This document shows, one piece after another, positions 16,120 to 60,639 of a DNA stretch of 64,000 bases; position 1 is the first letter of the stretch, and each line of letters starts with the position of its first letter. The stretch is from Isoetes taiwanensis (Eukaryota > Streptophyta > Lycopodiopsida > Isoetales > Isoetaceae), in NCBI GenBank assembly GCA_021234155.1, contig JAJEKV010000041.1, positions 1,738,447-1,802,446 of the forward strand, written 5' to 3'. The position numbers and the translations under genes were made by a program. The notes beneath the pieces are model-generated. The model did not search any database. It was not told where the DNA came from and saw nothing but the letters and a program-made list of their open reading frames with translations.

Positions 16120-16124
16120 GTTAA
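16120..16124. repeat. left target-site duplication of element C (GTTAA)
   Basis: GTTAA here and at 33128-33132 bracket the two LTRs exactly. Confidence 0.85.
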
Positions 16125-18221: not shown

Positions 18222-19192
18222 CTACATGCTTTCCAAGCAATTCGAGGTCATGCCCACATTGATAATACACCACGTCCTAGAGAACACGAAGGTGATCTCA
18301 TCATCGGTAACTATTATCAAGCACGATGCATTTACCCCTCTACTGCATGATTCTCGGCGAATCAAGCCTTCAAGCTTACCGCCGGGAGCGGGGTTGATAG
18401 CATCGTTGATGGTGCGGCCCTGAGATTCTCGCATGAAGTCTGGATAGTGCTTCTCAAGGTCTATCTTCATCACCCATGTAGCATCCTCAGCTGGCAAGTG
18501 TTTCCACTTAACCAAGTATTGTAGCATTTGACTCCTTCTAGTCTGCTTATAGGCTCGATCAAGAAGAGCTTTAGGCACTATATCTAGATGCTCTTCTGTT
18601 ATTTCCAGAAGGGTGGGTGTATCCAATATCTCATCTGGATCCGGGGTGTGTTGCTTCAATAGACTCACATGAAAGACCTTGTGGATCTTCAAGCGGGGTG
18701 GCAAATCCAAGCGATATGCCTGTTCTCCAACACGTTCAATGATTTTGAACGGCCCAGCCCATCTGGGTGCCAGCTTCTTGCAGTTACCAATCTTAAGCTT
18801 GGCTTGTTTTACCCTAATCTTAAGCCAAACTGATTCGCCCACCTGGAAGACTCGTGGGGTCCTGTGCTTATCTGCTACACTCTTCTAACGACTGCATGCA
18901 GCCAATAAGTAACCACGAACTTCTTCAACCAAAGCTTGCATTTCCAAGTGTTGAGAAACCTCCACTTTAGAAACGGGATTATGCCATGTGTCTGGAGTAA
19001 GGCATTGATAACCATAATTTATCATGAAGGGAGACATTCTGGAAGACTCCTGTTTCATGCTGTTATAGGCAAATTCAACCAGATAAATATAGTCAGCCCA
19101 TTGTGACTGCTTACTCCACACATAACTTCGTAGCATATCTTCTATAATACGATTGGTACGCTCTGTCTGACCATCCGTCTGAGGATGATATG
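18222..19192 (-). pseudogene. element C integrase C-terminal half with chromodomain
   Basis: The frame from 19192 to 18885 continues the integrase core after insertion E, with the catalytic Glu region HPQTDGQTERTNRIIEDML. After a frame shift near 18880 a second open frame (18842-18222) has the SH3-like C-terminal domain (APRWAGPFKIIERVG, HKVFHVSLLK). A chromodomain follows at about 18578-18432 (LQYLVKWKHLPAEDATW) with the usual tryptophans. Chromodomains of such elements direct integration to particular chromatin. Seen: motifs and frame break. Inferred: type II chromodomain. Confidence 0.88.
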
Positions 19193-20299
19193 TGTAACGA
19201 GCCTGCCGAGTTGACCCTCCTGGCAATTCGGGATCTCATCTAAACTTCCACTAATTCTAGGTTGATAGTATTGGTGAAGAATTGAATCTTCTTACTCATA
19301 ATAATCAGAGAACAACCATAGTATATCCATCGTCAAATACAATAATATTCAGAGAAATACTATCGTCAATACATTCACAAGATCTAGCTCAGCAATTTAA
19401 CACAAGAGCTTCTCCTCTGGAACTCAATCACGATCCCTGGCTACACTGCTGCCGCTAGCTTGACCACTGCCTGCTAATCCACTGCACCATGCACTCAAAG
19501 GGGTTAGTCCTCGTGACTAAGTGGGGATCGCATAGCTGCCTCTGCATACATGGAAACACTCTGGAATTTTGGATAACAAGAACATAAACAACTCAAGACA
19601 CAAGAACTTATGGTGAAATGCTAGACGATGACAACAAAGTAAACATCATGAACATCCAAATAAAAGAACATAACTAAAGTACCAAACCATCATGAACAAA
19701 CTCCGGGACAATGGGTAGCTCAGCCAGCCTACATATAGGCCCTGTTAGCAGCATGTTGCCCAGCCAGCTTACATTCCAAGCCCTGTAGCGGGTGGTGGGG
19801 TGAACCTCGTATACGCATACCCTCTCAGCCCACGTCTGGCACTGGAGGACCTCTTACCATAGGGTTTCACAAGAGTTGACTGACGTAGCAATCCCTGCCA
19901 GGAGAACTAACGCCCGGTGTCACAGAGCACAAGAACCACAGAGAATCACAGATGAACATGAGCATGCCGGAGCAACCTAGGCCACCGAACCTAGAAGTCC
20001 GACCCCGGAGGTTCCAATAAACATAATCAAATACCAAGACAACAGTGGAACAATGCAAATACGATGACATGTGGTGTTCATTAGAATGTTTACTATAAAT
20101 GTGCCTAGATCATACTCTTAGCCGTTGTCAAGGTTGCCCATACAACCTAATCATGCCGAGGTAGCTAGATCGGTGATGAAACCCTGATGACAGCTCAAAT
20201 ATTGATGTAGCGTGCTCAAACCACCCCTGTAAGGTTGATGCAGTACTCGCTTGATCATATTATTTACTTAAGCTCTCTTAGGTATGGTTCCAATGTTTA

Positions 20300-22960
20300 A
20301 CACTAGAGTGGTCAGGTGATGGACCAGAAATGGTCCATTTGCAGTGTTTACTTTAAAATTCATATAAAATCAATGGTACAAAATCTATTCGAACCCTTCC
20401 TAGGAGTTTATATATGGCAGTCATGGTCCACTAGAAAAATACCTAAAAATATATACACCTCCATTCTTGTAAGTTATGCTCTAGCAAACTCAGGGGGGGT
20501 CAAGTACCAAAAGCTTCATCTTTACATAAAGTAAAACTGTCTCGACAAAACGATTTTTTTAAATTTTTTGATTACCAAGATATTTTTCTACACGAGATAG
20601 AGAAAATGACACAAAACACCACATGTCAATCCGAAGTCTGTGAAGAAAGATAGGGCCATTCAAACATGACAGGGTCAAAACTGCTTTCTGCCTCCTCAGA
20701 ACCAATTATGGTTCCCAGAAGGCAGTTGTAGTATAAATACAACAACTTTTACAAGGAAATGCATTTTGAGCTAATATTTGACATATGAGCAATTGACAAG
20801 TTTCTTCATCCCATAAAAATGTTAGCTGACCTTGAATTTGACGTTTGGACTTTCACTTTTGATCTCAAGTTTAGGTAACTTGTAATAATGATTAATATTT
20901 CCCCACATAGAACAAAACTTACTCTATGATGTCCTCCAAAAAATCATAATATGAAAGTTCAAAATGATATGAAACTAATGCAAAAACAAGCTCATTAAAA
21001 AAGCAAAAGACATGGTCACAAGAAATCAAGAAAGGTTTCTGTACCTGAGCCCATTATTGGTCCATAGGTCCATTTAAAATCAATAACTTCCTTATATTAA
21101 TTGATCTGAAGTTGAATTTTGGGATATGAATAGCTTCTCATTTACTTTAATAAGGAAAATATTTGTTGACCATAACCTTGAGATTTGGATTAAACTTTAT
21201 AGAATCAAATTCAAATATGTCTTCTATGTTTATTCTAGATTTATGCCTCGAGATGTGACTTTGAAAAAACACATTCTCAAAATGTCCCATGTCATGAAAT
21301 CACTGCAAAAAAATTCAAAGAAAAATATGGAAGTTTATGACTATAAAAAGTCAAGTTAGACTGCTATGTGCAGCTCCACTTGTAGACCATTATTGGTCCA
21401 CCGGACTGGAAGTTTAAAAATTAATAGAGGCAACATCTTAATCAATTTTGATCTCAACTTTAGAATGTAGTTTATGTGTACAACTCTCTATGGGGTAAAA
21501 TTAATTGGTTAGACGAGCTTCCATAATTGGAGGGCAATGTTTAAGCACAAATAACTGTGAATTTATGGGGTATTTATTTGCCAATTGAATCTACATGGAC
21601 TTCCACTTACACCATTCAAAAATTATATTGTTAAAGATAAGAAACCATGGTATCATTATGGGGACAAAATGGATAGGGGCTAGTGAGAGATATATGCTCT
21701 ATACAATTGGTCTAGTTATGGACCATAAATGGTTCATGCTTAATTATATTCATATCTTTCAAATAGTATATTATTTCAATATGAAAATTAAGAGTTATAT
21801 TGCAAAGGAAGACCCGCATTCATGAAAAATATAGTGTACATAAAAGATGACCTACTTGTAACATTATCCTATTGGAACTCTAATGCTTTGTAGCAGCAAT
21901 GGATACACCAGTTTTATACTAGTAAAAAATAACTATGTTTCTCCGCATATTTTTGCAAGAAAGCCACACAACCTATATAGGGGACCTATATATATGTCCC
22001 TTGTCATATTTTGAACCATTTGAAAGGCTTACTTGGAGAAATGTAGTGTGTTTTCTACAAAGCTGAGAAAGACGCATCAAAGGTCATATGGTTTATACTT
22101 AAACTTCACAATCTTCACTTTCATTCATCAATAAACATCACTCGCTAGTAAATGATGAGTTTTCAGCCTATAATTTTGGAATTAACTCAAATTTTTAACC
22201 TCTAATGTGTTAATCCTATGGTTGTACATCATCTTTAAATCTAGTTAATTGCATGGTTAAACCCTAATTACACTATATGCAAGTTGATAGAGTAATTTTC
22301 TATGTAGATATAAGAAGAATGCATCATTCATTACCCTCGTAATACTTACAGGTGGTGATTTTGGAGCATTTTAACATTATTATAATTTTGTCCTAAATTC
22401 TGTATTGGAAATTCTCTATTAGATTTTGAAGTTGATATAACTTATGAACACTCCAAAAAAACATAAGATTATACACATATAGTTAAGAATTCATGGCCAC
22501 AAGAATTAACCCAAAACTTGTAATAATAAGAGAGAAATAATTCCTAAACCGCATGCAGCATTTTTGAACAAAATAGGGTTTGCCGGCTTCCACGGACGTT
22601 AGATGATAGCAACCAAAGTTGAAAACATACAAATCAATGTGTTTTATCATAAATAGACAAATACTTTCAGTTTTAGCAAGGTTTAGGCTTGTTTATACTA
22701 GGAAAACCCAAGAATGCAGTTCTGGACTATTGCAGAAACTGTCAAATTCTCTAATATTTGAACAATCACTACAACATATAGGTGAGTTCATTGCCCTTGA
22801 AATTCTTGAAGGTCATTAAGAATCAAGTAAAGATTGATATGGTGGCGATATATCACGAAATTGAAACTTCTATTCTCAGATATATTGGTTTAAGTGACAG
22901 TGGGTCAACTGGACCAATTCTGGTCCATGGACCAGGAATGGTCCCCGGGACCACTCTCGT
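20300..22960. repeat. diverged tandem array of about 350-bp units with a TGGTCCA palindrome motif, inside E
   Basis: Hyphenated palindromes of the type GGACCA...TGGTCC recur near 20320, 20700 (weak), 21055, 21390, 21720 and 22905. Several are followed by A/T-rich text containing AAATCAATA and TGATCTNAANTT. Spacing of the first five is roughly 330-380 bp. The copies are heavily diverged, so the array is old. Confidence 0.5.
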
Positions 22961-24389
22961 GTTAAATATTTAAAATTCCACTTCTTAGCTAATGAATTAA
23001 TTGCGCATTCAGACTGCGCCTCCAACTTACACTTTTCCTGCTTAAAAATCCATGGGGTCCCCTGACCGCAACTGCCTGGAACTTCCGTCAAGCAGCTCCC
23101 AGGCAAGCCCCATCTCTAGGAGCAAGCCGGTACAATTACCTTGGTTATCTAGTTACAAATTACACATTTATTCATTCTTAATGTTATTCTTACTACTCAT
23201 AATTATTCTCCCCAATCTTCATGCTCGGATCTCTTCTGCCGGCTAAATCCTTCTTTGCCTTAAGCCAAAATGCAAGCCAACTATATCCATGGTTATTTAA
23301 CTTTATAATTTAGCATCCAAACAATTTGACAAGACAACAAAGTGACATCTCCAAATATAAACAACAAGAAAAATAGAAACGAAAACCCAAAAGTTACAAG
23401 AACAGAAAAGAATCTGAGACTTGGCCTCTTCGACTCTGGTTCCTACATCGATCCTCCACAATCAAGTTCGAAATTGATGTTAAACCCTTTCCTGGCAGAC
23501 CCACAGTGGATTCAGGGTAATTTAAGGCAGTTCTGAGCAATTCCGAGCCATCTTTCGGCCCTTCTACCATGACCCAACAAGCATTTCCAGCTCCAAATTC
23601 AATATAAAACAGATGCTTCTACAATTTCGGCTCCTTAGCAACCCAAATCGACCTGTTCCAGGTCGTTTCCAAGTGCTTCCCATAGATCCAGTTTCCGCTG
23701 TGGCGATTCGATTGCAGATAAAACCGGTTGCTGCAGCCCATAATTCCTGAACTAGATTACTTCTGCATCCATTTCGACCTACTCCAGGCCCTTCTGAGGC
23801 ATAAATCGGCCTCTATCATGCAATTTCGACCTCTGCCATGAGTTTGGGTCTGATCTAAGGCAGTTGGGTCACCGTTCTGTATTATGGAATGACCATGTCG
23901 ACCTCTGATTTTATCAAATCAGCCCTTGATTCCTTCAATTTGACTTCTTAGCAAGCCAAATCCATCTGTTCTTGGTCCTTCTGAGAAGCTTCCATAAACT
24001 TAGCATCCGACTGTGGCAACTCTGCTGCAGTTTACACCGTTGATGTAGCTCATAATATCCCGATTTAATTCTAGAATACATGCAGCTTCACTTTGCTTTA
24101 CCAAAGCATCAACAATTCTCACCATAGCTGTTACACCGAAATTATTTATCCAAAGCATGCATCTAATGATTCAAAGCAGCTAATAACTCACTTGAATCCG
24201 TGAAAACCCCACCTGATAGAAGAATATTTGATGCCGTTCCCAAGCTCTGGCATCCTCACTTGATCCGCCAATCCTCCCAGTGCAATCCTTCTTTGCCTTC
24301 ATGCTCCAGGTTGCCTTCTCTTGCGAAAACCTTCATGTCTCCAATCCCCACTAAGCTCTCCAAGAAACTCTTGCTTATATGCTCCTCCA

Positions 24390-24478
24390 TGTTGCATGCA
24401 TGTTGCATGTTCTATCTTGCATGCATGTTCCATCTTGCATGCATGTTCTACCTTGCATGCATGTCAAGCATGCATATA
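24390..24478. repeat. 18-bp minisatellite rich in TTGCATGCATG
   Basis: Units CTTGCATGCATGTTC(C/T)A(T/C) occupy 24416-24433 and 24434-24451, with a variant unit 24452-24469 and degenerate copies before. Each unit has the CATGCATG palindrome, the core of plant RY-type elements. Confidence 0.8.
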
Positions 24479-24531
24479 CGGACATGAGTACGCATACTGG
24501 CCCATCAAGTGGCCAGGATCGTTACAATATG

Positions 24532-25754
24532 CCGTACTCATAGCAAGCTTGGTTTGGATGGTGGTAAAGAAATCTTTCCAGAATGCGCTTACGAATTTGG
24601 GATCCCTGTTGGATACAATGACTCGTGGCATTCCGTGCAATCTGAAGATCTCCTTTGCAAATAGCAAAGCGGTATCGAAGGCTGTATCTGTGGTGCGACA
24701 TGGCAAGAAATGAGCCATTTTCGACAATTTGTCGACCACTACCATCAATGCATCATATCCACGGAGAGTACGTGGAAGGCCCACAATGAAATCCATGGTT
24801 ATCACTTCCCACTTAGCGTTGGGCACATCCAGAGGTTGCAACTCTCCTGGAATCCTTAATTGCTCAGTCTTGGTTTGTTGACACACTTGACACTGCTTAA
24901 TGTACCTGGCAATGTCCTTCTTCATGGAAGGCCAAAAATAACTGGAGCGGATCTTAAAGTAGGTCTTCATAAAACCTGCATGTCCAGCTATAGGGCTGTT
25001 GTGCATGTCATGGAGAATTAGCTTACGTACTCCTGAAGTCTCAGGTACACACAACTTATCCTTGTAATATAACAAGTTGCCCTCTTTCTTATACGAACGG
25101 AAAGTTTCGCGTTCTTTATCTGTGCGTGCCTCCTTAGCCAAACTATCCCAAACATCACGGAACTCGGGATCTGCGGCCAAAGACTGTTCTATCTGTTTCC
25201 CAAACTCACTAGTGAGTGTGGAAATTGCATTACAATGGGTTCGGGTTACTAAGGGATGGCGTGACAATGCATCCGCAACCACATTGTGCTTCCCAGGTTT
25301 ATACGTAATGTCAAAATCATACTCCTCTAGAAATTCCATCCATCTTCTCTGACGGAGGTTGAGATTCGGTTGGGTGGATAGATAACGGAGACTCTGATGA
25401 TCTATATCAAGTTGAAATCTTCTACCAAGAAGGTAGTGTCTCCATAAACGCAGAGCGCGGACAACGGCTAACAACTCCTGGTCATGGGTAGGGTATCGCT
25501 GCTCAGTCTCGTTCATTTTCTTCGAATCATAGGCAATAACCCTCCCCATTTTAAGGTTAACCCGACGACCATGAGTATGTCTGATTTTTCCACTGGCTAA
25601 AGTGACAGGTTTCGGTCGGGACCTCAAAGTCTCAAGCTGCAATACCTGGGCCATTCTAGGAGAAGCAAAATTATGTGTACTTCCCGTATCCATAAGAATT
25701 ATAAAAGGCTTACTGTCTACTTGACCGATGGTAGAAATAACAGCAGGCTGACTT
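24532..25754 (-). pseudogene. element C pol: protease joined directly to RNase H, then integrase core
   Basis: A retropepsin motif DTGS lies at 25690-25679. About 35 residues later (near 25560) the frame runs straight into RNase H sequence (RVIAYDSKKMNETEQRY, HYLLGRRFQLDIDHQSL) and ends with GKHNVVADALSRH. All of RT and the start of RNase H, including its first catalytic Asp, are missing, so about 1.2 kb or more was deleted without breaking the frame. The integrase follows, with the zinc-binding H-H-C-C segment ending CQVCQQ, and the first Asp in TMDFIVGLP. The second catalytic site reads VSNRDPKF, with Asn (AAC, 24610-24608) where Asp is invariant. The frame is interrupted at 24531 by insertion E. 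Confidence 0.92.
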
Positions 25755-27051
25755 TCAGCTTTGCCGGTTTCTATGGCTGAGGATATGAGACGCACCGTGA
25801 ATATAGTCGGGAGCCTCCTCCTCGACAGGTGGTGTAGACTCGAGATCGTCCCAATCGAGGTCGGCCATGGCCAACTGGGCAGTCTGTGTGACATAAGGGC
25901 AATTCTGCATGAAATGCCCGGGCCGCATACACCTATAACATGCTTTATCTCTGCGGAGCTGCTCTCGGGCCTCTTTGGGAATAGACTGTAAGAGGTTCCG
26001 AACTTCCTTACCGACATTGTTCGGTTTGTCGGGCATGTTGAAGGTGACTTTCTTTTCCTGGCGGCCGTTAGAGTTCTGCTGAGGGGGCCCCGGACTTGGT
26101 GAACGGCCCTTATAAGGTGTGTACGGGCGTGGCTGGGAGTAAGAGGCGGGGCGCTGGTACTGGTTTCGTGGTGCGTCCTCTTCAAGACTCAATGCCTTAG
26201 CCTCAGCCTCAGCAACTGATTTCGGGTCTATGGCCTTAACCATTCGTTTAATTGAGCCCTCCACCGCCCTCTTTTCATTCATTCCTGGCACATACAACCT
26301 CAAGCGCATGAATTCATCAGTGTAGGCCTGAACGGACATGTCCTTCTGCTCTAACCTGTAAAAAGTTTGAATCTGTTGGCATTTGTGCGCACGAGCACAT
26401 AATGCGACTTAAAAGCTTTGGCAAACTTTTTGAACTTGCACCTGCTTCTGTCCAGATGCTTGGCTCTGGCATAGCCCTTCCACCAAATACGAGCGGCTCC
26501 TGTAAGGTTTGTGGTGGCAACCTTTCCTGTATCCTTTTCTGTCATGCCATAGGATTTTCCAAACTCCTTCATCTCGTCCAACCAGGACTCTGCATTCAGC
26601 CCGCCCTTAGATTTCCCATCAAACTGGGCCAATTTCCTATTTTTCCATATACTGGTTATGGCCGTATCAACCGTCTTACGGTACTCTTTGTCCCGGCGCT
26701 TTGCATGGTCACCAGATGATACAGACGACTCAGAGGACACAGAAGTGGCTGATTGTGAGGATGTGGCACTATCCGTAGAGGAACTTCGACGACGTTTAGA
26801 ATGGTGCCTCCTTTGTGCGGGTACAGGGCCTGGTTCAGGTGCAGGTGGCGCTGTGGTGGTGGACTTGGCGGTAACGGAGGTAACTCCGGCCCATCCTCCT
26901 GTATATGCTGCAGTGGGTTGGCATTCAACACATAAGCTTGCAGCTCTACTAACTGTCGCTTGATCAATAGGAGTTCCTGTTCAGGCGTTAGTCTGCTAGC
27001 ATTCGAGGGTGTCTGCCATGAGGCGTTACGTGCACCGTCTATATTGACCAT
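25755..27051 (-). pseudogene. element C gag with CCHC zinc knuckle, frameshifted
   Basis: The start codon is at 27051. An N-terminal leucine-rich stretch (LLLIKRQLVELQAYVL) and proline-rich linker shift frame near 26830. The capsid-like domain (26740-26351) has WLDEMKEFGKSYGMTE and AARIWWKGYARAK. A second shift near 26360 leads to DEFMRLRLYVPGMNE. The nucleocapsid has C-Y-R-C-M-R-P-G-H-F-M-Q-N-C, a complete CCHC knuckle (about 25945-25905). Gag packages the element RNA. The frame ends at 25755, overlapping the protease frame. Confidence 0.88.
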
Positions 27052-27307: not shown

Positions 27308-27825
27308 CTAGGGCTGCGCAAAAGGGTACAGGATAGAGTAGCGGACGCTCTCCCGTACGGCCCTGACTACCTTGTAGCGAGCCCATGCCTGGATAATAAC
27401 ATGCTGGTAGTCTAAGGTAGAACTGATAATGAGCAAGTTAAAAAGGTTTCTTAATGCAAAGAAAATCTCCCATAAATGGTCATTGGCGTCCGCAAAAGCT
27501 TCGTGCCTTGTCATTTCCCAGTAATCCCAGGTTCGACGAAGAGTTTGCTGTAAATGCTCAAAGGCCCGTTCTCGGAGAATGTTAACTATTTCCAAGCCTT
27601 TAGCTGAGTCATAGGGCTCCCCCTCTTGCACGGGTTCCCCTGATTCATAATCCTCATCCCGGTCCGGGTACTCCCCATATCGTTGGCCGTAGTCTTGGTC
27701 GGGAGGTCCTGGATCGTCCCTTCGTATGTCGTTGGTGATTCTTTCCTCGATTTCTGCGAGCTCATCGTCTACAAGACGGCAAGAATGAATATACGATGTG
27801 GAACAATTTCTTCTACTCTAACTCT
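27308..27825 (-). CDS. element C extra ORF C, unknown protein upstream of gag
   Basis: An open frame of about 170 codons without a clear ATG near its start. An acidic, proline-containing first part (EIEERITND, YGEYPDRDEDYESGE) is followed by a helical part rich in R, E, L and aromatic residues (TLRRTWDYWEMTRHEAF, VRAVRESVRYSILYP). The sequence just upstream, TTCTTGCCGTCTTGTAG/ACG, is a good splice acceptor, so it may be joined by splicing to ORF B, with an AT-rich intron at about 27780-27997. I know no matching family. Confidence 0.55.
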
Positions 27826-27997: not shown

Positions 27998-29397
27998 CTA
28001 GGAGCTAGGCCCCACATCCTGATCCCTAGGTATAGGAGGTGGTGGCAGCAGTCGATGACGTAACAAAGTCACCCCTGGGTCTACTGTGGCAGCTGCAATG
28101 GAGGCAACCTCTGGCGGATAGGCGGCAGCCAATGGGGCCGCCGTAAGGAGCTTCATACTCATCCATGGTGCGATATCCTGCCCCAATGCAGTGAGGGCAA
28201 GATCCCGTCGGACGAGTACGTAAGTAAGCGTGCGTAGGGAAGCTTCTTGTGCCCTGCCAACATGGAAAGAGCACGGAGGTTCCACCATGAAGCCTCGGCC
28301 TCTGGCCCTAAGTCCCGGGCTACAAAAAGGACTTGCCCCTGCCGAAAAGCTGATAGGAAGAAGCGGGTGAGGTGATTCCCCAACACCTTCCCCTGCGGGG
28401 TTTCCGACGTGGCAACCTTCTTATCTAGGTCCATAGGGACTTCTTCTTCCTTGAGTTCCTCCTGCTCTTCCTTCAAATGGGTAGGGTTATGGTATAGATC
28501 TTCTTTTTCCTCGTCCGAACCGGAGGGAACTTCGACCATATTAATATTTGGGACATGAGGCCCCATGGCTGTAAAGGCATCCGGTGAAGGCTGAGATGGC
28601 GGATCCTGTAACACCAGTTCCCGAAGCCGTAACAAAGTTTCGGCCAGCTCTATGGTCTCCTGATGGAACTGGAGTAGTTGCTGTACTTCCTGGGGAAGGT
28701 CAATAGGAGTAAAGTCAATGAAATCATCCATACAGTACTCCGCTAACTCATAGAGCACATGGTCCTTGCGTCGGCGCTTAAACCCGGCCACCATGTGATA
28801 AGTCCAGATGATATCATCCAAAAGAAGATACTCTTGCCCTTGGTGATACACAACTGGAAGGGCGTCTAACCCGGACAAGCGTGCAGCTTGTTCCCGACGT
28901 GGTGGCATCTCCTCTGCCAACTGCTTCCAACGGACGAAGTCACCCATGCCTATGTGCTCATCTTCTTCCTCATCGGAGGACTCGGGAAGTTTGCCTTTCT
29001 CGGCCGGCAATGTCTCATCCTCAACATACTGATCCATGAGGATGGCTAGGGCAAAGGCAACTTCAAGATATTGTCGCCCCTGGTGCTGAACAACTGGCGG
29101 CTGTTTACTCCATCTAAGTTTGCCCTTGAGCACATCATATGCGTGGGTGTCACCCCCAAGCATTTCTCGGACTACATCCCGTTCTAGGTACAGCTGGGGA
29201 GGTTCCCCGAAAGGAATACACAGAGGGAGCATCTCCTCTGTGTAAAACTGTAGGAATCCGGCATAATCTGGGTGCCGCTGCATATTAGAGATGAGGTCGA
29301 GGCGCTGGCATAGAAAGGGCTGTAAAAGGTCAAAGGGCACCTGAGGATCCCAATGCTCTCCATCCTGGTACTATGCAAGTAGATTGATGGCGGCCAT
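27998..29397 (-). pseudogene. element C extra ORF B, acidic protein of unknown function
   Basis: The first ATG (29397) is followed eight codons later by an in-frame TAG (29373-29371); beyond it the frame is open to 28159, about 400 residues. A one-base shift near 28280 would extend it to 27998, where the text (TYVLVRRDLALTALGQDI) looks more protein-like than the original frame. Two similar segments, QHQGRQYLEV and YHQGQEYLLL, suggest an internal repeat. Acidic runs occur at SSDEEEDEH, SGSDEEKEDLY and LKEEQEELKEEEV. Such runs occur in many histone-binding proteins, which is notable beside an H3-like ORF, but they are common elsewhere too. No family recognised. Confidence 0.6.
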
Positions 29398-29605: not shown

Positions 29606-30322
29606 CTAAGGACGCTCTCCCCGATTCCTGCGGGCCAGGGCCAAATCCTTTGGTATTATAGTGACTCTCTTTGCGTGGATAGCGCAAAGATTTGCATCAC
29701 CAAAAAGTGCCACCAAGTAGGCTTCTGCAGCCTCTTGAAGTGCTAGAATGGCAAAAGTCTGGAAGCGGAGGTCGGGTTTGAATTCTTGGGCTATCTCCCG
29801 TACCAACCTTTGAAAAGGCAGCTTCCGTATCAGAAGTTCCGTGGTCTTCTGGAACTTACGGATCTCCCGTAAGGCCACGGTGCCGGGTCTGAACCGGTGG
29901 GGCTTCTTTGGTGGAGCGGGTTTGGGAGTCGGGCCCCTGTGCGGTGGTATCGTCTTGCCCCCAACGACAGGATGGGGCCGGGAAGCATCCACCCGCTCCT
30001 GCCTCCGGCTGGAACTCGCATTCTTCCCAATAGCTCCGACAACCTTCAACTTCTCCTTGTACTGGCTGCCGGACCTATGGGCTACGCCTTTTCTCCGATG
30101 TTTAATGGGCGTCCTGTCCGTCTGGTTTGGCCCCTGCTCGGTCTCTGGTCCCCCATTACCTTGTTGGTCCTGTCGGGCCTTTTTCTCTCGTTCCCGTTGG
30201 AGTCTTTCCTGTTCCTCCCGGAACTTTCGAGCTCTCTGGAGGTCGGCTTCAACCTCAGCGTACCGTCGTTCTACAATGCGGCGAAGGAGTTCAGCGTGGT
30301 ATCGGTTGGTCGCTGGTTCATA
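29606..30322 (-). CDS. histone H3-like fold fused behind a coiled coil, inside element C
   Basis: The open frame of 238 codons ends at TAG 29608-29606; the upstream stop in frame is TGA 30325-30323. Residues about 10-50 are a charged coiled-coil segment ([17 protein letters not shown]). A basic linker follows, then from about 29908 to 29609 a near full histone fold: [37 protein letters not shown] (helix 1), DLRFQ loop, [15 protein letters not shown] (helix 2), [26 protein letters not shown]. Loop 1 has no insertion, unlike CENH3. The canonical N-terminal tail with K4, K9 and K27 is replaced by unrelated text; K36/K37 equivalents remain. There is no ATG in this frame, so it is probably the C-terminal part of ORF A. 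Function in the element is unknown. Confidence 0.93.
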
Positions 30323-31008
30323 TCAATCTGGATCGTCGTCAAATAATCCAGGCTGATGTCAGGAATCTCTCCCCACATGAAGCTCTGGGAAGCTTCATGC
30401 CATTCAAATGGGGGAATTTCGATTGCCCTGCCATCAATGACGGCGACTCCATCTCCTAAATACCTATACTCTTGACCTCGAGCCACCGTATCGGCTCGTT
30501 CTAGCTCTCTGCGGTCATCCTCCCTGGCCAAGTTCCGGATACGGTCGGCCTCTGTTCTTATGGCCTCCTCCTCAGAGTGTTCCTCACATTCAGGAGGGTA
30601 AAATTTAATCAACATCATGACCAAGTCAGGTTGCTCGGCCATGGTATAAGGAAGCTGTCGGAGATTCAACCTAACCAAAAACTGTTCCGAGTAATGATAT
30701 ATTGGATAGGGTATCCTAGCGTCATCAGCAAATCTGAGTACCAACTCATCCAGAAGTATATCAATCAAGGCAGGGTCAGTAGCCATATGCTGGGCGATTA
30801 AGGCATAAATCTGGGCTATGGTGAGGCCAGCGGGGTCCATGGTACTCTTAGTGGTGGCCATAACTATGGCGCTGGGGTCTAGGGCGGCAGGAAGTGAGGC
30901 GCTCGCGATTAGGAAGACGATAGGGGAGGCGCTAGGGGTAGAAGAGGCGGTAGAGAAAAACCAAGGTGCAAAAGCAGGGTCGGGTCCGGTAGCTGTGGCG
31001 GACGTCAA
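30271..31008 (-). CDS. element C extra ORF A, N-terminal part, leads into the H3-like frame
   Basis: 245 codons from ATG 31008; ATGs at 30861 and 30840 ([14 protein letters not shown]) are more likely starts because the first part is low-complexity. Helical text ([19 protein letters not shown]) is followed by an acidic charged stretch ([15 protein letters not shown]) and [20 protein letters not shown]. The frame overlaps the H3-like frame by 52 bases (30322-30271). Either one indel or a ribosomal frameshift would make a single protein of roughly 410-460 residues: N-terminal domain, coiled coil, H3 fold. It is the first coding region after the PBS. No family recognised for the N-terminal part. 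Confidence 0.7.
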
Positions 31009-31522: not shown

Positions 31523-31534
31523 GCTCTGATACCA
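31523..31534 (-). promoter_or_regulatory. primer binding site of element C
   Basis: GCTCTGATACCA on the plus strand is TGGTATCAGAGC on the element strand, one base after the 5' LTR end: initiator tRNA-Met type. Confidence 0.92.
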
Positions 31535-31535
31535 C

Positions 31536-33127
31536 TGTGACGCTCCCTGAACATATACGACACTCGGGCGTATACATACAGGGACTTTCCCCTCCCATGG
31601 CAACCAACTCGCCACGAACAGGGCCCTCCGTCTAACTCGGGCCATCTATAAAAAGATGCTCGAGTGAAGGACACAGAGGGGTCATTCGGCCCACACCTTC
31701 AATGGGGCTCCTATGTCGCGGAAGCGTGAATACCAGGTTAGCACACAGCATAATCATATCATAAAATACCACCACGAGGGGTGGCACATCCATCCAAGTG
31801 ACAACAACAAAGAATATGCATTTAATACTAGGGAAAACACCCCAAACCCATGGTTCTACCCCGGCTCAGACTCCAGTGAGGATCGACTGACGGCGAGGTC
31901 TCAAGAGATCAGCAGACCGAATCTTAGCATGGCGTTGGCTGGCATGGAACATTGGCTAGGGTTGTCCACTCCATCCGCCCCTCCTGTGCACACTTTGCAG
32001 ATGAGTCGAATCATGCTATGGCATCACTATAGCCTTCCGGAGTCGCAGACTCAAGGTATCACCCTTCGAGCCTACTCCAGGGTTCATGACGCCCCGGTCC
32101 GATGAGGTAGGTCAGGGAAGTGTCCCCTTCCAGGATCACAGTGGTTCCATGGGTGAGCTAGAGAATACGTGGGCCGCATCAGCGACCCCCGCATCCATAC
32201 CCGACTTAGTCACCCTAAATCTACTCAAAGTACAGGGTGCCCCATTCGGGTCACACCTCTGCACCCAGGGAGTGTCAGACCCATACCCGGCCCTCTACGT
32301 GACCGGCTATCAGGCCTAGCCCACTGTAGGAGTCTCAGGAGCCTTGTATGTTTGTGCAAGACCCCACCCCCACTTCACCACTGTGTCCCTTCTCTGGTAC
32401 TAAGCAATTCCATAGCATCCACGACTCGATGGTCTCTTGTGCACAGGCCGCATTAATTGGGAATTAAAGGAGCTACTAGGAGCATACTAAAGCATGAAGC
32501 ACAGAGGTCTCTACCCCCCTCTAATCCCTACTTTACGGAAGACTAACAGAGATATTTTCATAGATTCATCCATCCATTCATAATAACCATAATCCATAAT
32601 TGAAATGTAAATCCTAAATATCAAAGAAGGGTTAATCCTAAGTAAGAACAACCAGAGAAGACTCAAAGAACTTAACTGAAGTGCTAGCCTTAAAGATATT
32701 AACTAGATTATCTACTAACCCGAGTTTCGACTTGATCCATTGTCATGAGGCGCCTCCTGTTCAGCAAAACTGGGGTGTTCAGCAACAGTTCCAGGTACTT
32801 GGGCGCTCAGTTGCTCCTCCTCCTGGCTCGATTTTGGGGTGAAATGGGGGTAGTGATCCACCTTGATGGCCCAAGTTAGCATTCCCATGCTGGCCAATCG
32901 AGTTTGGCCATGTGGCACCTTCCCAAGTAATCAATTAACTTAATTAAACTAATTAGACATTAATTCCTTAATTATAGGTTATTATCCTTAATAATTAATT
33001 TAGCATAGCTAAATTAATCCCTTTTAGGTCAACCCCCTAGGTTACAATACCCCATGGTGGTGTACCTTTATGGGGTGACATGTCAGTATATTTATACGTA
33101 TACCATATAAATACTTAGAACGTCACA
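31536..33127 (-). repeat. 5' LTR of element C
   Basis: 1592 bp. It differs from the 3' LTR by scattered substitutions and by lack of a short CCATCTCTCCGTAATCTGG-like stretch near 32757. It contains the same antisense 130-codon frame (31713-32105). Confidence 0.95.
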
Positions 33128-33132
33128 GTTAA
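33128..33132. repeat. right target-site duplication of element C (GTTAA)
   Basis: Matches 16120-16124. Confidence 0.85.
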
Positions 33133-34180: not shown

Positions 34181-35940
34181 GGCAACCTGAGAATTTTCTG
34201 CTATTCTTGATGGGGTCACAGACTTGGGCAAAACAACAATAGTTTTTCTGTAGACTCCACCTTATGAGAAGCTGGGCAGATGTCTTATTGTATTTTGCTG
34301 CAATCTGTGATAGCTTATAGACTCCACCTTATGAGAAGCTGGACAAATGTCTTATTGTATTATGCTGCAATCTATGATAGCTTATATAAGTATGGACCAC
34401 AAAACCATTAATTGTCATGCGGAATAGAGGAGATTCACCTTTAGAAAATTTGGATTAGCAAGATGCTTCCCTGTAGTAAGAGAAGAATATGCTTCCGGAA
34501 TAATTCCATGTTCCTGACAGAACTTAACCAAATGTAGTATTTAAAGGGTGGATTTCTATGTGGTCTGGTATTTAACGGGTGGATTTCTATCTGTGCATCA
34601 AGACAGTAAAAAATAAAGATATGACATGAACACAAACATATATGCTTATGTTAAATATCCTACCTGCTTTACATATGGCCGTACCAATAAATTAGCAAAA
34701 AGCTCTTCTAAGTGATGAATGCCATAGTTGCTAACTCCAATTGACTTTGCTTTACCTGATTTAATATGTACCTCCATAGCCCTCTAGGATTACAACCTTA
34801 GAGGCATAGGGGCATGAATAAGATATATATCAATACCTTATTCCATAAGACGCCGCCTTTAAGTTAATGAATAAAGAAAAGCTCTAAGAGTAAAAATGCG
34901 AACAGAGAATTTTCTGCTATTCTTGATGGGGTCACAGACCTGGGAAAAACAACATAATTTTTCTGTAGACTCCACCTTATGAGAAGTTGGGCAGATGTCT
35001 TATTGTATTTTGCTGCAGTCTGTGATAGCTTATATAAGTGTGGACTACAAAACCATTAATTGTCATGCGGAGTAGAGGAGACTCACCTTTAGGATATTTG
35101 GATTAGCAAGATGCTTCCCTGTAGTAAGAGGAGAATATGCTTCCAGAATAATTCCATATTTCTGACAGAACTTAACCAAATGTAGTCTGGTATTTAAAGG
35201 GTGGATTTCTATCTCAAGGTCAAGACAAGATGAAAATAAAGATATGACATGAACACAAACATATATGCTTATGTTAAATATCCTACCTGCTTTACAAATG
35301 GCCATACCAATGAATTAGAAAAAAGCTCTTCTAAGTGATGAATGCCATGGTTGCTAACTCCAATTGACTTTGCTTTACCTGATTTAAGGAGTACCTTCAC
35401 AGCCCTCCAAGATTCCAACCTTAGAGGCATAGGGGCATGAATAAGATATAGATCAACACCTTATTCCATAAGACACCACCTTCAAGTTAACGAATAAAGA
35501 AAAGCTCTAAGAGCAAGAATGCGAACATAAAAGCTCACCATAGCCCATTTCCAATTCGGCTAGACTCCTATTAAAAGACGCCAAAGTAGCCTCATATCCA
35601 TGGTCAGGATTCCTAAGTTTGGTGGTTATAAGTATTTCTTCTCTGGGAATGCAACTTTTATGTACAACTCTACCTGAAGAAAACATTAATTATGTTCTTC
35701 TTAACAGCAAGCAAAGAAATCACGCGAGATATACTCACCAATGCCTTTCTCGTTGTTATATCCTCAAGCTATATCAATATGGGGATACCCTAACCTATGG
35801 GCTTCAGCCACAGCGCTGTAAGCTTCATCAGTCTTCATCTGCCATACACCCAGGCCAATCCTTGGTATTTGAACTGAGAGGCCTTCAAATCCTGCATTTT
35901 TTAGCTCAAACGTACTGGATGCAAGGGAAGGCTGCGCCAT
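34181..35940 (-). pseudogene. aldo-keto reductase gene, broken, with duplicated exons
   Basis: Exon 1 (35940-35739) starts MAQPSLASS and contains IPRIGLGVWQMKTDEAY and LGYPHIDIA, then an in-frame TGA (35766-35764) just before GYNNEKGIG, the catalytic Tyr region. Exon 2 (35673-35539): IPREEILITTKLRNPDHGY. Exon 3 (35459-35287): DLYLIHAPMPLR and GKAKSIGVSNHGIHHLEEL. Exon 4 (35212-35097): IEIHPLNTRLHLVKFCQ and GIILEAYSPLTTGKHLANP. A fifth exon near 34240-34190 has [14 protein letters not shown], the cofactor-binding motif. Degenerate second copies of exons 3 and 4 lie at about 34830-34440. Known role: NAD(P)H-dependent reduction of aldehydes and ketones. The stop, and the partial copies, argue for a pseudogene. 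Confidence 0.85.
34188..35525. repeat. tandem duplication (about 620-720 bp units) of aldo-keto reductase exons
   Basis: Unit 34188-34904 and unit 34905-35525 both start GAGAATTTTCTGCTATTC and run through the exon 5, exon 4 and exon 3 regions. The left unit is longer because it holds its own 67-bp tandem duplication (34251-34317 and 34318-34384, starting TAGACTCCACCTTATGAG). The left copy of exon 3 has extra stops. Confidence 0.85.
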
Positions 35941-36745: not shown

Positions 36746-36747
36746 CG

Positions 36748-39358
36748 TATCTGTTGAAGGTATAGCTGTAGATCCCAAGAAGACGGAGGCAATTCAGTTT
36801 TGGTCTGTGCCAAAGAATGTATCTGAGTTGCGTAGTTTCTTGGGATTGGCCAGTTATTATCGCAGATTTGTCTGGAAGTTTGCCAAGATTGCAGCTGCTT
36901 TGACTATGTTGTTAAAAACTAATGTCCAGTGGCAGTGGACGGTGAAGCAGCAGCAGGCAATGGATATGCTGAAGAGGTTGCTGACCTCAGCACCTATTCT
37001 ATTGATTCCAGACATGAGTAAACCTTATGAGGTTTACACGGATGCATGACTTATGCCATTGGTGCTGTTCTCATGCAGGATGGTAGAGTAGTGGCGTATG
37101 AAAGTCGCCAACTCAATGCTGCTGAGAAGAACTATTCCACCTATGAGCAGGAGTTACTGGCAATGGTTCATGCGCTCAAAGTCTGGAAACATTATCTCCG
37201 CAATAAGTGTGAGTTTGTGGTCTACACGGATCATAAACTTTTGAAATTCCTGCAAAGCCAGGCCGAGGTAAGTCCAAGGCAAGCAAGATGGTTGGACTTT
37301 CTTTCGCAATTTCATTTTCATGTTGAACATCTTCCCGGAAAAAAGAATCGCATTCTTGATGCTTTTTCTAGGGTTCGGGAAGTAAATGTGATGGTTCAAT
37401 GTGAAATTGCTTTGGTGTCACAGATTAAGCAAGCATATGACTTGGATGCCTATATTTTGAGTATGCAGCATCTATCCAAGTTACCTGATGCTTGGGACAT
37501 CTAGAATGGACTCTGATATCATAAGGGACGTATTTATGTTCCTGTTGTGGACACTTTGAGAAAGCAATTATTGAGCGAATTTCATGATGCACCTTATGCT
37601 GGGCATGGGGGTGAATGGAAAACGTATGAATTGCTCAAGAGAATATTTTACTGGCCTAGCTTGAAAAAGGATGTGCAGGATTATGTGAAAGTTTGCAAGA
37701 CTTGTCAGCAGGTTAAATCGGGTCGAGGCAAGACTCCAGGGCTAATGCAACCTCTGCCTGTGCCAGAGGAGAGGTGGAGTGAAATCTCTATGGATTTCAT
37801 TGTAAAGTTGCCTCGTACTGTGCATCACTATACCCAGATACTTGTCATTGTGGATAGGTTTGATGAAGTATGCACGCTTTATACCTCTGACAAAGAATGA
37901 TGATGCCTTGGCGGTGGCCAAGGCTTATATGCAGCATGTATTTCCTATTTTTGGATTACCCAAAGCTATTGTAAGCGATCGAGAGGTGAAATTCACTCGA
38001 AATTTTTGGCGTGAATTGTTCTCTGTATTGAAATGCACTCTTCAGTTCTCTAGTGGAGATCATCCGAAAACGGATGGGCAAACTGAAAGAATGAATCAAA
38101 TTCTAGAGGATATGCTGAGATTGTATGTGGCCACTCAGCAGTCCAGATGGGAGGACTATTTGCCAATTATAGAGTTTGCTTACAACACAAGGCATCCAAA
38201 AGCAAAACACCACATGGTTTTTCCCATGGTTATGACTAGAAAACCATTCCACAAAACCAATGGATTTTTGTGGGTTAATTTCATTAAAAACCATATGAGG
38301 CTAAACTACTTGGTTTTCTTGTAAGGTTCACTAGGGTGGTATTATGGCATGGAAATTGCTAACGACTCCTTCCTAGTGTTTGTCAAAGTGGTATTTTATG
38401 TTGGTAAATAGATGTGATATATTATAATGTTTTAAAGGTAGGGTTTCCTAATGTGGTATAATATAGTGGTTGTGGATGTGGTTTGATGTCGCGGCTCTAT
38501 TTATGTGATTTTATGATGTGGTTAGTTATGGTGGTAAAATGTCATGGCTAATTTTCATGGTAAATGCACACGGCTCACGATGTGTTATATGCAGTAAATC
38601 ACCATTATTTAATTAGTGGAAGTGTTTAGGTTATTATTGTATTAAAAACACTACTATGTTTATCAAACTTAGATGTAATTGTTAGTTGTAGAAATGCATG
38701 GTTTTGTAGTACACTAGATTCATGGTTATCATTTATAAACAAGTATTGCTATATAGTCTAAAGCATTTCAAACTACTAGACTAAACTATTAAAGATTGTG
38801 GATGGTTTCTTATGTATTGTAGTACTTATTAAGGTTGGTAATCCACACAACACATGTTTTTTTCTAGTATAGTTTTAAACAATGTGTAGAGATAAACAAA
38901 ACAACATAAGAAACCTAACGACATTGTTTTCAGTTGTCATGAGGAAAGAGAATTACACTGCAATGGTAACAAAAAAATTCTTGCATTGTCTAATGAGTAT
39001 ACATTTCCCATTTGAATTTTTTAGTACATAATCACATATTGTTCATTTCAAAAGTATCATCTCATTTTCAAGTAATAGATTCTAAACTTTACAATCTCAA
39101 AATGAGCAATCTATTATGCAATATATTCCACAATGTATAAATGTAATGTAGCAAAGAACAATATAATGTAATCGACAATTTACAATTGGCTTTATTTTTT
39201 AAAAACAGGGGGCGTCCATATCTGCAATGCCAGAAACAAGCATATAAGTGAGAATATTTGGAAGCAAAAGGACAAATATGCTCCAGATTCTAAAACCTAC
39301 AAGAAGATTTCTGTGTTCCGTGTTTGCAACATAAACATGAATGTTCTCTGCTGTCCAA
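36748..39358 (+). repeat. duplicated segment, copy 1 (gypsy RT end, RNase H, integrase and CACTA-like left end)
   Basis: Near-identical to about 40265-42861. It starts inside RT ([21 protein letters not shown]), continues through RNase H (RVVAYESRQLNAAEKNYSTYEQEL) and integrase (MDFIVKLPRTVHHY, VSDREVKFTRNFW, GQTERMNQILEDM), then from 38186 the left end of the CACTA-like element, and stops at 39358 against SINE-like sequence. Both copies share a frameshift at the RNase H TDA site, so this damage predates the duplication. Each copy also has its own mutations. Confidence 0.92.
38186..39358 (+). mobile_element. truncated left end of the CACTA-like element, duplicate copy
   Basis: The same CACAAGGCATCC terminus and the same position in the integrase as at 41699. 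It ends abruptly at 39358, so the transposon was already inserted when the segment duplicated. Confidence 0.8.
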
Positions 39359-40012: not shown

Positions 40013-41698
40013 AGTATCGTGATGCCTTTTGGACTAACGAATGCTCCTGCTACTTTTTCCAGAATGATGAATGAGATTTTTGCAGGATGTCTTGATACTT
40101 TTGTTGAAGTATTTTTAGATGATATCCTGGTGTATAGCAAAACCTTAGAGGAGCATTTGAATCATTTGCGCTCTGTGTTAACTCTGCTCAGACAGCATAA
40201 GTTGTATGCAAAGATGTCAAAGTGTGAATTTTTGAAAGCACAGGTGGAATATTTGGGCCACATTGTATCTGCTGAAGGTGTAGCTGTAGATCCCAAGAAG
40301 ACGGAGGCAATTCAGTTTTGGTCTGTGCCAAAGAATGTATCTGAGTTGCGTAGTTTCTTGGGATTGGCCAGTTATTATCGCAGATTTGTCTGGAAGTTTG
40401 CCAAGATTGCAGCTGCTTTGACTATGTTGTTAAAAACTAATGTCCAGTGGCAGTGGACGGTGAAGCAGCAGCAGGCAATGGATATGCTGAAGAGGTTGCT
40501 GACCTCAGCACCTATTCTATTGATTTGAGACATGAGTAAACCTTATGAGGTTTACACGGATGCATGACTTATGCCATTGATGCTGTTCTCATGCAGGATG
40601 GTAGAGTAGTGGCGTATGAAAGTCGCCAACTCAATGCTGCTGAGAAGAACTATTCCACCTATGAGCAGGAGTTACTGGCAATGGTTCATGCGCTCAAAGT
40701 CTGGAAACATTATCTCCGCAATAAGTGTGAGTTTGTTACACGGATCATAAGCTTTTGAAATTCCTGCAAAGCCAGGCCGAGGTAAGTCCAAGGCAAGCAA
40801 GATGGTTGGACTTTCTTTCGCAATTTCATTTTCATGTTGAACATCTTCCCGGAAAAAAGAATCCTGTTGCTGATGCTCTTTCTAGGGTTCGGGAAGTAAA
40901 TGTGATGGTTCAATGTGAAATTGCTTTGGTGTCACAGATTAAGCAAGCATATGACTTGGATGCCTATATTTTGAGTATGCAGCATCTATCCAAGTTACCT
41001 GATGCTTGGGACATCCAGAATGGACTCTGATATCATAAGGGACGTATTTATGTTCCTGCTATGGACACTTTGAGAAAGCAATTATTGAGCGAATTTCATG
41101 ATGCACCTTATGCTAGGCATGGGGGTGAATGGAAAACGTATGAATCGCTCAAGAGAATATTTTACTGGCCTAGCTTGAAAAAGGATGTGCAGGATTATGT
41201 GAAAGTTTGCGAGACTTGTCAGCAGGTTAAAGCGGGTCGAGGCAAGACTCCAGGGCTAATGCAACCTCTGCCTGTGCCAGAGGAGAGGTGGAGTAAAATC
41301 TCTATGGATTTCATTGTAAAGTTGCCTCGTACTGTGCATCACTATACCCAGATACTTGTCATTGTGGGTAGGTTGACGAAGTATGCACGCTTTATACCTC
41401 TGACAAAGAATGATGATGCCTTGGCGGCGGCCAAGGCTTATATGCAGCATGTATTTCCTATTTTTGGATTACCCAAAGCTATTGTAAGCGATCGAGAGGT
41501 GAAATTCACTCGAAATTTTTGGCGTGAATTGTTCTCTGTATTGAAATGCACTCTTCAGTTCTCTAGTGGAGATCATCCGAAAACGGATGGGCAAACTGAA
41601 AGAATGAATCAAATTCTAGAGGATATGCTGAGATTGTATGTGGCCACTCAGCAGTCCAGATGGGAGGACTATTTGCCAATTATAGAGTTTGCTTACAA
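40013..41698 (+). pseudogene. element A (gypsy, chromovirus-like) pol: RT, RNase H, first part of integrase
   Basis: RT begins at its palm ([13 protein letters not shown]) with the catalytic F-L-D-D-I-L box, so the 5' part is lost. Thumb and connection follow. A TGA at 40526-40528, the shared frameshift after TDA near 40563, and a small deletion near 40736 break the chain. RNase H ends PGKKNPVADALSRV. Integrase starts at 41061 with HDAPYARHGGEW and the C-x-x-C pair CETCQQ. Two of the three catalytic acids are clear (MDFIVKL, SDREVKF), and GQTERMNQ holds the Glu. The frame is cut at 41698 by the CACTA-like element and resumes at 56066. Confidence 0.92.
41696..41698. repeat. left 3-bp target duplication of the CACTA-like element (CAA)
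   Basis: CAA here and at 56063-56065. With one copy removed the integrase codons on both sides are in the same frame. Confidence 0.85.
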
Positions 41699-42719
41699 CA
41701 CAAGGCATCCAAAAGCAAAACACCACATGGTTTTTCCCATGGTTATGACTAGAAAACCATTCCACAAAACCAATGGATTTTTGTGGGTTAATTTCATTAA
41801 AAACCATATGAGGCTAAACTACTTGGTTTTCTTGTAAGGTTCACTAGGGTGGTATTATGGCATGGAAATTGCTAACGGCTCCTTCCTAGTGTTTGTCAAA
41901 GTGGTATTTTATGTTGGTAAATAGATGTGATATATTATAATGTTTTAAAGGTAGGGTTTCCTAATGTGGTATAATATAGTGGTTGTGGATGTGGTTTGAT
42001 GTCGCGGCTCTATTTATGTGATTTTATGATGTGGTTAGTTATGGTGGTAAAATGTCATGGCTAATTTTCATGGTAAATGCACACGGCTCACGATGTGTTA
42101 TATGCAGTAAATCACCATTATTTAATTAGTGGAAGTGTTTAGGTTATTGTATTAAAACACTACTATGTTTATCAAACTTAGATGTAATTGTTAGTTGTAG
42201 AAATGCATGGTTTTGTAGTACACTAGATTCATGGTTATCATTTATAAACAAGTATTGCTATATAGTCTAAAGCATTTCAAACTACTAGACTAAACTATTA
42301 AAGATTGTGGATGGTTTCTTATGTATTGTAGTACTTATTAAGGTTGGTAATCCACACAACACATGTTTTTTTCTAGTATAGTTTTAAACAATGTGTAGAG
42401 ATAAACAAAACAACATAAGAAACCTAACGGCATTGTTTTCAGTTGTCATGAGGAAAGAGAATTACACTGCAATGGTAACAAAAAAATTCTTGCATTGTCT
42501 AATGAGTATACATTTCCCATTTGAATTTTTTATTACATAATCACATATTGTTCATTTCAAAAGTATCATCTCATTTTCAAGTAATAGATTCTAAACTTTA
42601 CAATCTCAAAATGAGCAATCTATTATGCAATATATTCCACAATGTATAAATGTAATGTAGCAAAGAACAATATAATGTAATCGACAATTTACAATTGGCT
42701 TTATTTTTTAAAAACAGGG

Positions 42720-56749: not shown

Positions 56750-57445
56750 TGTTACGGCTCAATGCGGCTTGGGGAGTGGCTCAGGCAAGACGCAACATGA
56801 GTTAATATTCCGAAGGTTAGAGATTGTTTGCTAAGGGTTATAATTTTATAACATGGCATATGGGTATAGCTAGGTATGTCAACATTTTAAAGGTGAACAA
56901 ACAATTGTGCATTTTTAAAAATACAAATACTTGGTGATAACGCCCGCGACCCCTTTATCTGGCTACTTTCGAAATAGTATCGAGGAAGCGGACGTTTCCC
57001 GGATTCAAGGGAAAAGGGCGGATTCGGTTCTGCCTTAAGATTAAACCCAGCTATTCTTGGCCGATTCATAGATATTTCGGATCTTCTACCTTTTACTAGA
57101 TAACTAGGGATTAGAAAAGGCCAAACCGGAAATAGGCTATTCTTCCCTTTAAATACAACTGCTCTTCTTATTCTTAGACAGAAAACTCCGTCCGTGTGAT
57201 CAAGGTTTCCAGTGTCTTGCAGTAGTGAGGATTGAACGAGCTTCTTATTAAGCCTTGGTTTCTTGGTTGCGGTCTTAACAGCAAGTAACGGATCTTGGGC
57301 AAAGCCTAGCCCGGTTGGGTGGTTAAATCTCCTAACGATTGGAGAGTGTTTCTAAATTCTTTGGGTTTTCTTTCTTTGAAGTGTTGTGTTTATCTTTCAT
57401 TGTATCAAGTTGGTATCAGAGCCTGCCGTTCTTGAACCTGTAACG

Positions 57446-60622: not shown

Positions 60623-60639
60623 AAAAAGAATATGTGGGC

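Follow-up and report, generated by a model that had tools for sequence, protein, structure and literature searches.

A histone H3 core at the C-terminus of the first protein of a chromodomain LTR retrotransposon in Isoetes taiwanensis

Does the histone H3 fold that lies between the primer-binding site (PBS) and gag of an LTR retrotransposon in Isoetes taiwanensis belong to the element, and what might a mobile element do with a histone? The locus is found in contig JAJEKV010000041.1 of assembly GCA_021234155.1, in a stretch of 64,000 nucleotides that we call the window. The original prediction, made from the letters without database searches, described an H3-like protein that the element carries and may supply for its own use.

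The element is a Ty3/gypsy chromodomain LTR retrotransposon (chromovirus), as attested by its LTRs, target-site duplication, PBS, chromodomain and the order protease, reverse transcriptase (RT), RNase H, integrase (Table 1). This order is read in a second copy, L041, with RT recognized by eye and RNase H and integrase through their match to the window proteins. From 5' to 3' the element runs LTR, PBS, N-terminal domain plus H3, ORF3, ORF4, gag, pol, LTR. The coordinates bear out the predicted position of H3, on the element's strand between PBS and gag, and the target duplication flanking the element. The LTRs, which had been called exact, are only close: they are 97.1% identical, the 1610 aligned columns containing 27 mismatches and 20 gap bases. 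We take the PBS to be of the initiator tRNA-Met type. Compared with L041, the window copy lacks about 1.36 kb, RT included. Its integrase, whose core match stays below the Pfam cut-off, is split by roughly 5.3 kb of foreign sequence, and a scan of 19100-24600, around that insert, gave no repeat of at least 30 bp. A search of the whole window against Rfam gave no match.

Table 1 Features of the H3-bearing element in the window, in the order of transcription between the two target-site duplications.
Feature	Position	Strand	Remark
Target-site duplication GTTAA, right	33128-33132	none	exact against the left copy
5' LTR (TGTGAC...GTCACA), 1592 bp	31536-33127	-	aligned to the 3' LTR
PBS TGGTATCAGAGC	31523-31534	-	one base from the 5' LTR; also in 13/20 other copies
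N-terminal domain of the fused protein, begins MATTKST; no Pfam family	30271-30861	-	frame shifted relative to the H3 part here
Remaining N-terminal part: charged stretch and basic linker where the H3 tail would be	29909-30322	-	
Histone H3 core spanning H3 positions 36-135, with RGERP at its end	29609-29908	-	stop at 29606-29608
ORF3, conserved, no Pfam match	28159-29370	-	5' start cut by a stop; in 19/20 other copies
ORF4, uncharacterised protein	27308-27817	-	in 16/20 other copies
gag, CCHC knuckle, two frames	25755-26980	-	below Pfam cut-offs; in 15/20 other copies
Protease, RNase H, N-terminal part of integrase	24464-26188	-	RT absent in the window copy (L041 has RT)
Foreign insert within integrase	19236-24463	none	true edges about 19194 and 24526
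Integrase core, C-terminal part	18885-19235	-	assigned by its similarity to L041; itself without a Pfam match
SH3-like domain and chromodomain	18222-18884	-	PF00385, 32.5 bits (cut-off 25.1)
3' LTR, 1608 bp	16125-17732	-	aligned to the 5' LTR
Target-site duplication GTTAA, left	16120-16124	none	exact against the right copy

Other repeats share the window. A second pol region of the Ty3/gypsy type is present twice in direct orientation (36747-38944 and 40265-42453), with segments 97-100% identical at a spacing of about 3.5 kb; an integrase zinc domain is recognized in the second copy. The doubled region is best read as a recent tandem duplication or the product of an unequal exchange. Direct repeats of 98-99% identity lie at 56771-57268 and 62434-62935, with a spacing of 5.66 kb, and the RT, RNase H and integrase frames between them (59273-61593, plus strand) indicate another, compact LTR element. 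On the minus strand, an RT match at 12760-13353 (PF00078, 33.7 bits, cut-off 29.6) marks a further retroelement remnant. Positions 34227-35532 hold a diverged tandem duplication (92-93%, spacing 623-648), whose minus-strand frames, judged by eye, are presumably pieces of an aldo-keto reductase. Finally, two copies of a 148-bp unit, 99% identical, stand head to tail at 6275-6570.

The H3 fold was predicted to stand in a frame free of stops, and it does. The minus-strand frame 29606-30322 is open over 238 amino acids; PF00125 is recognized in residues 124-233 at 131.1 bits, against a cut-off of 26.4, and 109 residues match H3 chains in the PDB with a best E-value of 8.3e-51, values far beyond chance. 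The core of the window copy is 81-84% identical to canonical H3; where the alignment is confined to the core, identity is 83-87%, and the element copies retrieved by searching the genome with H3 are 71-86% identical to it. Against host H3, 45 of 46 element cores show no gap, so that loop 1 has its canonical length. When 8000 candidates were scored in a search with the H3 part, the 120 matches listed were H3-type proteins at 77-85% identity, none of them nearer to the element.

The H3 fold of the original prediction thus stands, but it is not a separate small protein: in open copies the fold is the C-terminus of a protein of 416-451 amino acids. This fused protein consists of an N-terminal domain, a charged stretch, a basic linker and, at the extreme C-terminus, the H3 core. 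In the window the N-terminal domain is the next frame upstream, divided from the H3 part by a frameshift. We read the junction in 20 other copies (L021-L040), chosen as stop-free in the H3 frame: both parts share one frame in 18 of them (the exceptions are L022 and L024), and ten have an uninterrupted frame between the ATG region and the end (L021, L023, L026, L027, L032, L035 and L037-L040), a count that reflects this choice. The protein has 416-421 residues in six members of the main clade, 451 in L062 and 430 in L063, the last two from deep lineages. In all eight, PF00125 is found and the linker ahead of the core carries a net charge of +8 to +13 per 90 residues.

In place of the H3 tail, the fused protein has 316-351 residues of unrelated protein. 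Its N-terminal domain has no relatives in Pfam, and its fold predicted from the single sequence has a mean pLDDT of 39. No relative of the N-terminal part appeared among 127 candidates, a weak result given that a length limit of about 416 amino acids drops most open fused proteins.

The core itself keeps most of what a histone H3 is made of. Residues R42, T45, R49, K56, R63, K64, R69, R72, K79, R83, F84, Q85, C110, H113, K115, R116, T118, K122, D123, L126 and R129 are each retained in at least 44 of 45-46 copies; presumably they serve pairing with H4, DNA contact and chaperone binding. L126, R129 and I130, which we take to form the ASF1 side of H3, persist in 45, 44 and 43 of 45 copies; for C110, H113 and D123, assigned by us to the four-helix bundle, the counts are 46, 45 and 46 of 46.

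Other positions have changed relative to host H3, and nearly always in the same way: Y54F (43/46), S86T (44/46), S87F (44/46), V89I (45/46), G102A (43/46), E105G (43/46), T107A (46/46), I124L (45/45), Q125A (41/45) and A135P (41/45). Some of these sites are, we assume, near the H3-H3' bundle. E59 is replaced by Q or D in 35 of 46 copies and K36 by R in 37 of 45. The chaperone site of helix alpha-2 reads FAIL in 44 of 46 element cores versus SAVL, TAVL or HAVL in the host genes.

The canonical tail with K4, K9, K14, K18, K23 and K27 is absent, its place being taken by the linker and the domain. The 36 residues preceding the core contain one or two lysines in the six main-clade proteins and four and five in the two deep-lineage ones, where the canonical tail sequence is missing too.

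How many such genes are there? We searched the genome (1,658,258,908 bases in 1110 contigs) and scored the best 150 matches per search. The top of the genome H3 search is occupied by 15 single-exon host H3 genes of 96-98% identity, after which the score falls from 270 to 188 bits; matches below these host genes were counted as element copies by identity, whatever LTRs each might have. The union of a listing of 150 places and one of 135 gives at least 237 places on 94 contigs. Stops interrupt H3 in 59 of the best 150 copies of the first search and in 6 of the 135 element copies of the second; among the 20 best, taken unfiltered (L001-L020), ten carry one.

The surroundings of these copies are those of the element. 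ORF3 was found in 90 places with P0121, a relative of it; in 44 of them an H3 from the two listings lies immediately upstream in the same orientation. From the other 46 we sampled eight at even steps, and all eight have H3 on the same strand, three clean and five with stops, gaps or shifts. H3 is thus upstream of ORF3 in 52 of the 52 places examined out of 90 (44 by coordinates, 8 by sequence). Ahead of the H3 gene, the 20 copies have a near-full 5' LTR in 12 cases, a partial one in four and none within the fetched stretch in four, and the exact 12-base PBS in 13. Downstream on the same strand ORF3 follows in 19 of 20, ORF4 in 16 and gag in 15.

A longer series was read in L026 and its neighbour L041 (C1056): 5' LTR, PBS, N-terminal domain with H3, ORF3, ORF4, gag, protease, RT, RNase H, integrase and chromodomain. 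It extends 135 bases into the 3' LTR; there the match ends and a frame follows that resembles Ty1/copia by eye. In L033 (9608-9874) and L036 (8582-9399) a far more distant gag/pol, 35-45% identical, comes after the H3 block; these are either nested elements or the result of a gag-pol swap under the same 5' block.

We measured selection on 31 copies, the 20 best unfiltered and 11 chosen as stop-free. Over the H3 fold mean dN is 0.028 and mean dS 0.398, with a pooled dN/dS of 0.076; for the N-terminal part of the same copies the ratio is 0.237. A codon bootstrap over 30 copies places the H3 ratio between 0.044 and 0.115, and the N-terminal part exceeds it in all 2000 draws. L014 was left out of this bootstrap, and of the main group in the comparison between frames, because of its gapped alignment. 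Reading the H3 DNA in the two shifted frames gives ratios of 2.1 and 3.0. The other frames of the element (ORF1, ORF3, ORF4 and gag) lie at 0.10-0.23, with ORF3 at 0.17, which makes the H3 core the most constrained part measured.

Sorted by rising dS, pairs of copies give H3 ratios of 0.267, 0.163, 0.077, 0.051 and 0.039. Per pair, nonsynonymous differences remain flat across the bins (5.2-6.5) while synonymous ones climb from 6.3 to 34.7; the flat nonsynonymous count means that these differences are mostly decay after insertion. The pattern points to an active line, held under constraint, from which dead copies are shed. The H3 part has 5 stops in about 3100 codons against 8 in about 3840 for the N-terminal part, no clear deficit, as expected if stops arise after insertion, and the complete lack of H3-frame stops in the comparison between frames reflects the stop-free picking of L021-L040. 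The dN/dS among copies, 0.076 pooled and down to 0.039 in old pairs, is thus far from the value near 1 that would speak for a captured fragment.

Common to most copies and under strong purifying selection, the H3 part is a conserved additional ORF (aORF) of a plant LTR retrotransposon. The claim that it belongs to the element therefore holds well beyond the window, given the places counted, the ORF3 linkage and the LTR, PBS and gag around it.

Where does the gene come from? A DNA tree built from 46 element cores and five of the 15 host H3 genes parts the two sets by one branch with a support of 97/98. The long-branch lineages L052, L058 and L061 are placed close to the base on the element's side. 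Saturation at synonymous sites is seen both between element and host and among the deep lineages (pS 0.78-0.94), and the host genes are themselves nearly saturated against one another (dS 1.9).

Two of these three, followed further as L062 and L063, share the fused architecture; their N-terminal domain is about 35% and their ORF3 35-53% identical to that of the window copy. In the third, L052, ORF3 is directly downstream of H3 (C1014:355137). Most likely, then, H3 was acquired before the lineages of L052, L058 and L061 split. Across deep lineages whose N-terminal domains are about 35% identical to the window's, the H3 core has hardly changed, and we regard it as an old, selected gene of the element, kept through deep divergence. 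That several lineages captured H3 separately is less likely: the deep branches are long and one fork among them is weak (89/63), but the N-terminal domain shared by two of three deep lineages argues for a single capture.

In the window copy a stop lies close to the ORF3 start. Relatives of ORF3, 471-472 amino acids long, occur in two ENA contigs of 3374 and 2953 bases and are 44% and 42% identical to the window's; one of them, P0121, is only 73% identical to its best match in the Isoetes taiwanensis genome and so probably comes from another species. None was found in viral contigs. The fold predicted for ORF3 from an alignment of three sequences has a mean pLDDT of 38, and this low-confidence model repeats a strand-strand-helix motif three times. 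Homology between ORF1 and ORF3 was considered and rejected, as hhalign finds nothing (probability 0.2%). Pfam recognizes no further histone fold in ORF3, ORF4 or gag.

The original prediction also assumed that the chromodomain of this clade reads histone tails, which is not a safe premise here. Aligned to yeast Chd1 with phmmer, the window chromodomain, by eye, is without an aromatic at positions one and three of what we take to be the aromatic cage; direct reading of H3K9 methylation is consequently not expected. It fits the group II chromodomains, which lack these two aromatics and whose partner is given as unknown in the accessible part of PMC3350952; the kind is also treated in the available text of PMC6317226.

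We can now propose a role for the H3 core. Plants silence transposons by H3K9 and H3K27 marks. A Ty3/gypsy chromodomain lineage gained an H3 long ago and has retained it at the C-terminal end of the first protein it encodes. This core would pair with host H4, be taken up by host histone chaperones and enter nucleosomes or tetrasomes; these would serve the element best on DNA of its own, be it new cDNA or silenced copies. Such nucleosomes, bearing a large foreign domain and lacking the tail lysines 4, 9, 14, 18, 23 and 27, would escape H3K9 and H3K27 marking. Chromatin assembly with host H4 combined with escape from tail-based silencing, in other words a self-made H3 variant resistant to silencing, is the reading that we tentatively rank first, at somewhat less than an even chance. 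Its narrower form is possible but more doubtful: a 'stealth nucleosome' of tail-less H3 and host H4 on element DNA, selected because it could not be methylated at H3K9 or H3K27.

It is the pattern of conserved residues that suggests assembly with H4, and the tail loss alone that suggests escape from silencing. Each part has its difficulties. The nearly fixed changes in the core, some of them presumably near the H3-H3' bundle, could alter the pairing, and the N-terminal domain without Pfam relatives may direct a quite different role. Escape is only one among the uses of an H3 fold, and the loss of lysines ahead of the core is not universal, as the four and five of the deep lineages attest. Moreover, 59 of the best 150 copies carry a stop and the surrounding frames are often broken, which does not look like an escape that succeeds.

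Next in rank, though on the unlikely side, is a role in delivery, with the H3-H4 unit serving as a handle for nuclear entry and chromatin docking. Host importins and chaperones of the ASF1 or CAF-1 kind would attach to the H3 core and bring the pre-integration complex or cDNA to replicating chromatin, while the N-terminal domain would bind gag, integrase or cDNA. The retained residues of the presumed ASF1 side and four-helix bundle would suit this use, as would the basic linker before the core in all eight proteins and the position of the fused protein as the 5'-most long frame of the element. A chromodomain of group II type, for which reading of H3K9 methylation should not be assumed, makes another tether plausible (PMC3350952, accessible part). 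DNA-contact residues are nevertheless kept throughout the core, beyond what docking to chaperones alone would need.

The same DNA-binding surface, together with the basic linker and a gene lying before gag in the same orientation, is compatible with packaging, in which the fused protein would condense element cDNA or RNA in a nucleosome-like manner, a role discussed for viral histones. We consider it improbable, since host H4 at least would be required and ORF3, ORF4 and gag contribute no histone fold detectable by Pfam. Least probable among the functional readings is a poison or decoy that would compete for H4 and chaperones, or cap host nucleosomes with a bulky domain, and so loosen host heterochromatin generally instead of targeting the element's DNA; an intact core without its canonical tail would fit, yet a general attack on chromatin is costly for a vertically inherited element. 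A non-functional one-off capture of a local host fragment, the outcome set against the original prediction, is practically negligible: the window copy is indeed broken in several genes and host-gene capture by plant LTR elements is common according to the available text of PMC7264820, but it is excluded by the at least 237 places, the dN/dS down to 0.039, the tree apart from five host H3 genes and the identical fused architecture in two deep lineages.

With a selected H3 that lacks its tail, one can test directly whether swapping the histone itself frees a mobile element from histone-tail silencing. The centromeric variant CENH3 (CENP-A) is comparable in joining an H3 fold to a long divergent N-terminus. 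We take a longer loop 1 and a diverged core to be the marks of CENH3; the element core has neither, being ungapped against host H3 in 45 of 46 cases, with a canonical loop 1, and 83-87% identical in alignments confined to it, and a CENH3 identity is thereby ruled out.

VANDALs are DNA transposons, and we know of no histone fold in them. Their protein VANC offers a parallel to our favoured explanation, as a plant transposon protein that removes silent marks from its own kind, but it acts by sequence-specific binding (PMC10398659, accessible part), unlike the mechanism proposed for the element's H3.

Additional internal genes conserved in all or most copies are known as aORFs in plant LTR elements, and the H3 part resembles them in this respect (PMC7264820 and PMC6317226, as far as their available texts go). 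Those described in the accessible text of PMC7264820 are mostly located between pol and the 3' LTR, with env-like or uncharacterised products, whereas our element has three extra frames between PBS and gag, the first of which ends in H3. The word histone is absent from the main text of PMC7264820 and from the accessible text of PMC13317346, and its sole mention in that of PMC6317226 concerns chromodomains. In orchids, Ty3/gypsy elements carry an AlkB-type RNA demethylase (PMC9289625, available text): there too a host-type domain has become fixed in a large gypsy lineage, with a proposed bearing on host surveillance. Unlike the element's H3, it is an enzyme domain, recent and found in two orchid species. 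The screen in the same text covers 121 angiosperms only and reports 15 extra domains, none of the nine named being a histone.

Within the titles and opening lines of abstracts of the open-access literature we found no histone gene in a retroelement, which agrees with the original prediction that no plant LTR element with an H3 had been described, though absence from print is not thereby proven. Histones are known instead as cargo of DNA viruses. A single H3 is encoded by Manila clam xenomavirus, Dishui Lake phycodnavirus, Sylvanvirus and others (PMC9145170), a review whose accessible text yielded no mention of retrotransposons or retroviruses. The element is like these in having one H3, theirs being 73-87% identical to host-type H3. 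Some viral H3 proteins have a longer or divergent N-tail and an altered alpha-2 site, SAIL or TAIL (PMC9145170), where the element has FAIL. The viral genes are sporadic, in DNA viruses or metagenome bins, while the element's H3 belongs to an LTR retrotransposon family, with measured selection. Moreover, the element has swapped the tail itself for unrelated protein. Its H3 is a natural separation of the two halves of the histone, the functions of the fold frozen and those of the tail discarded, and it suggests that mobile elements may include one that makes chromatin of its own.
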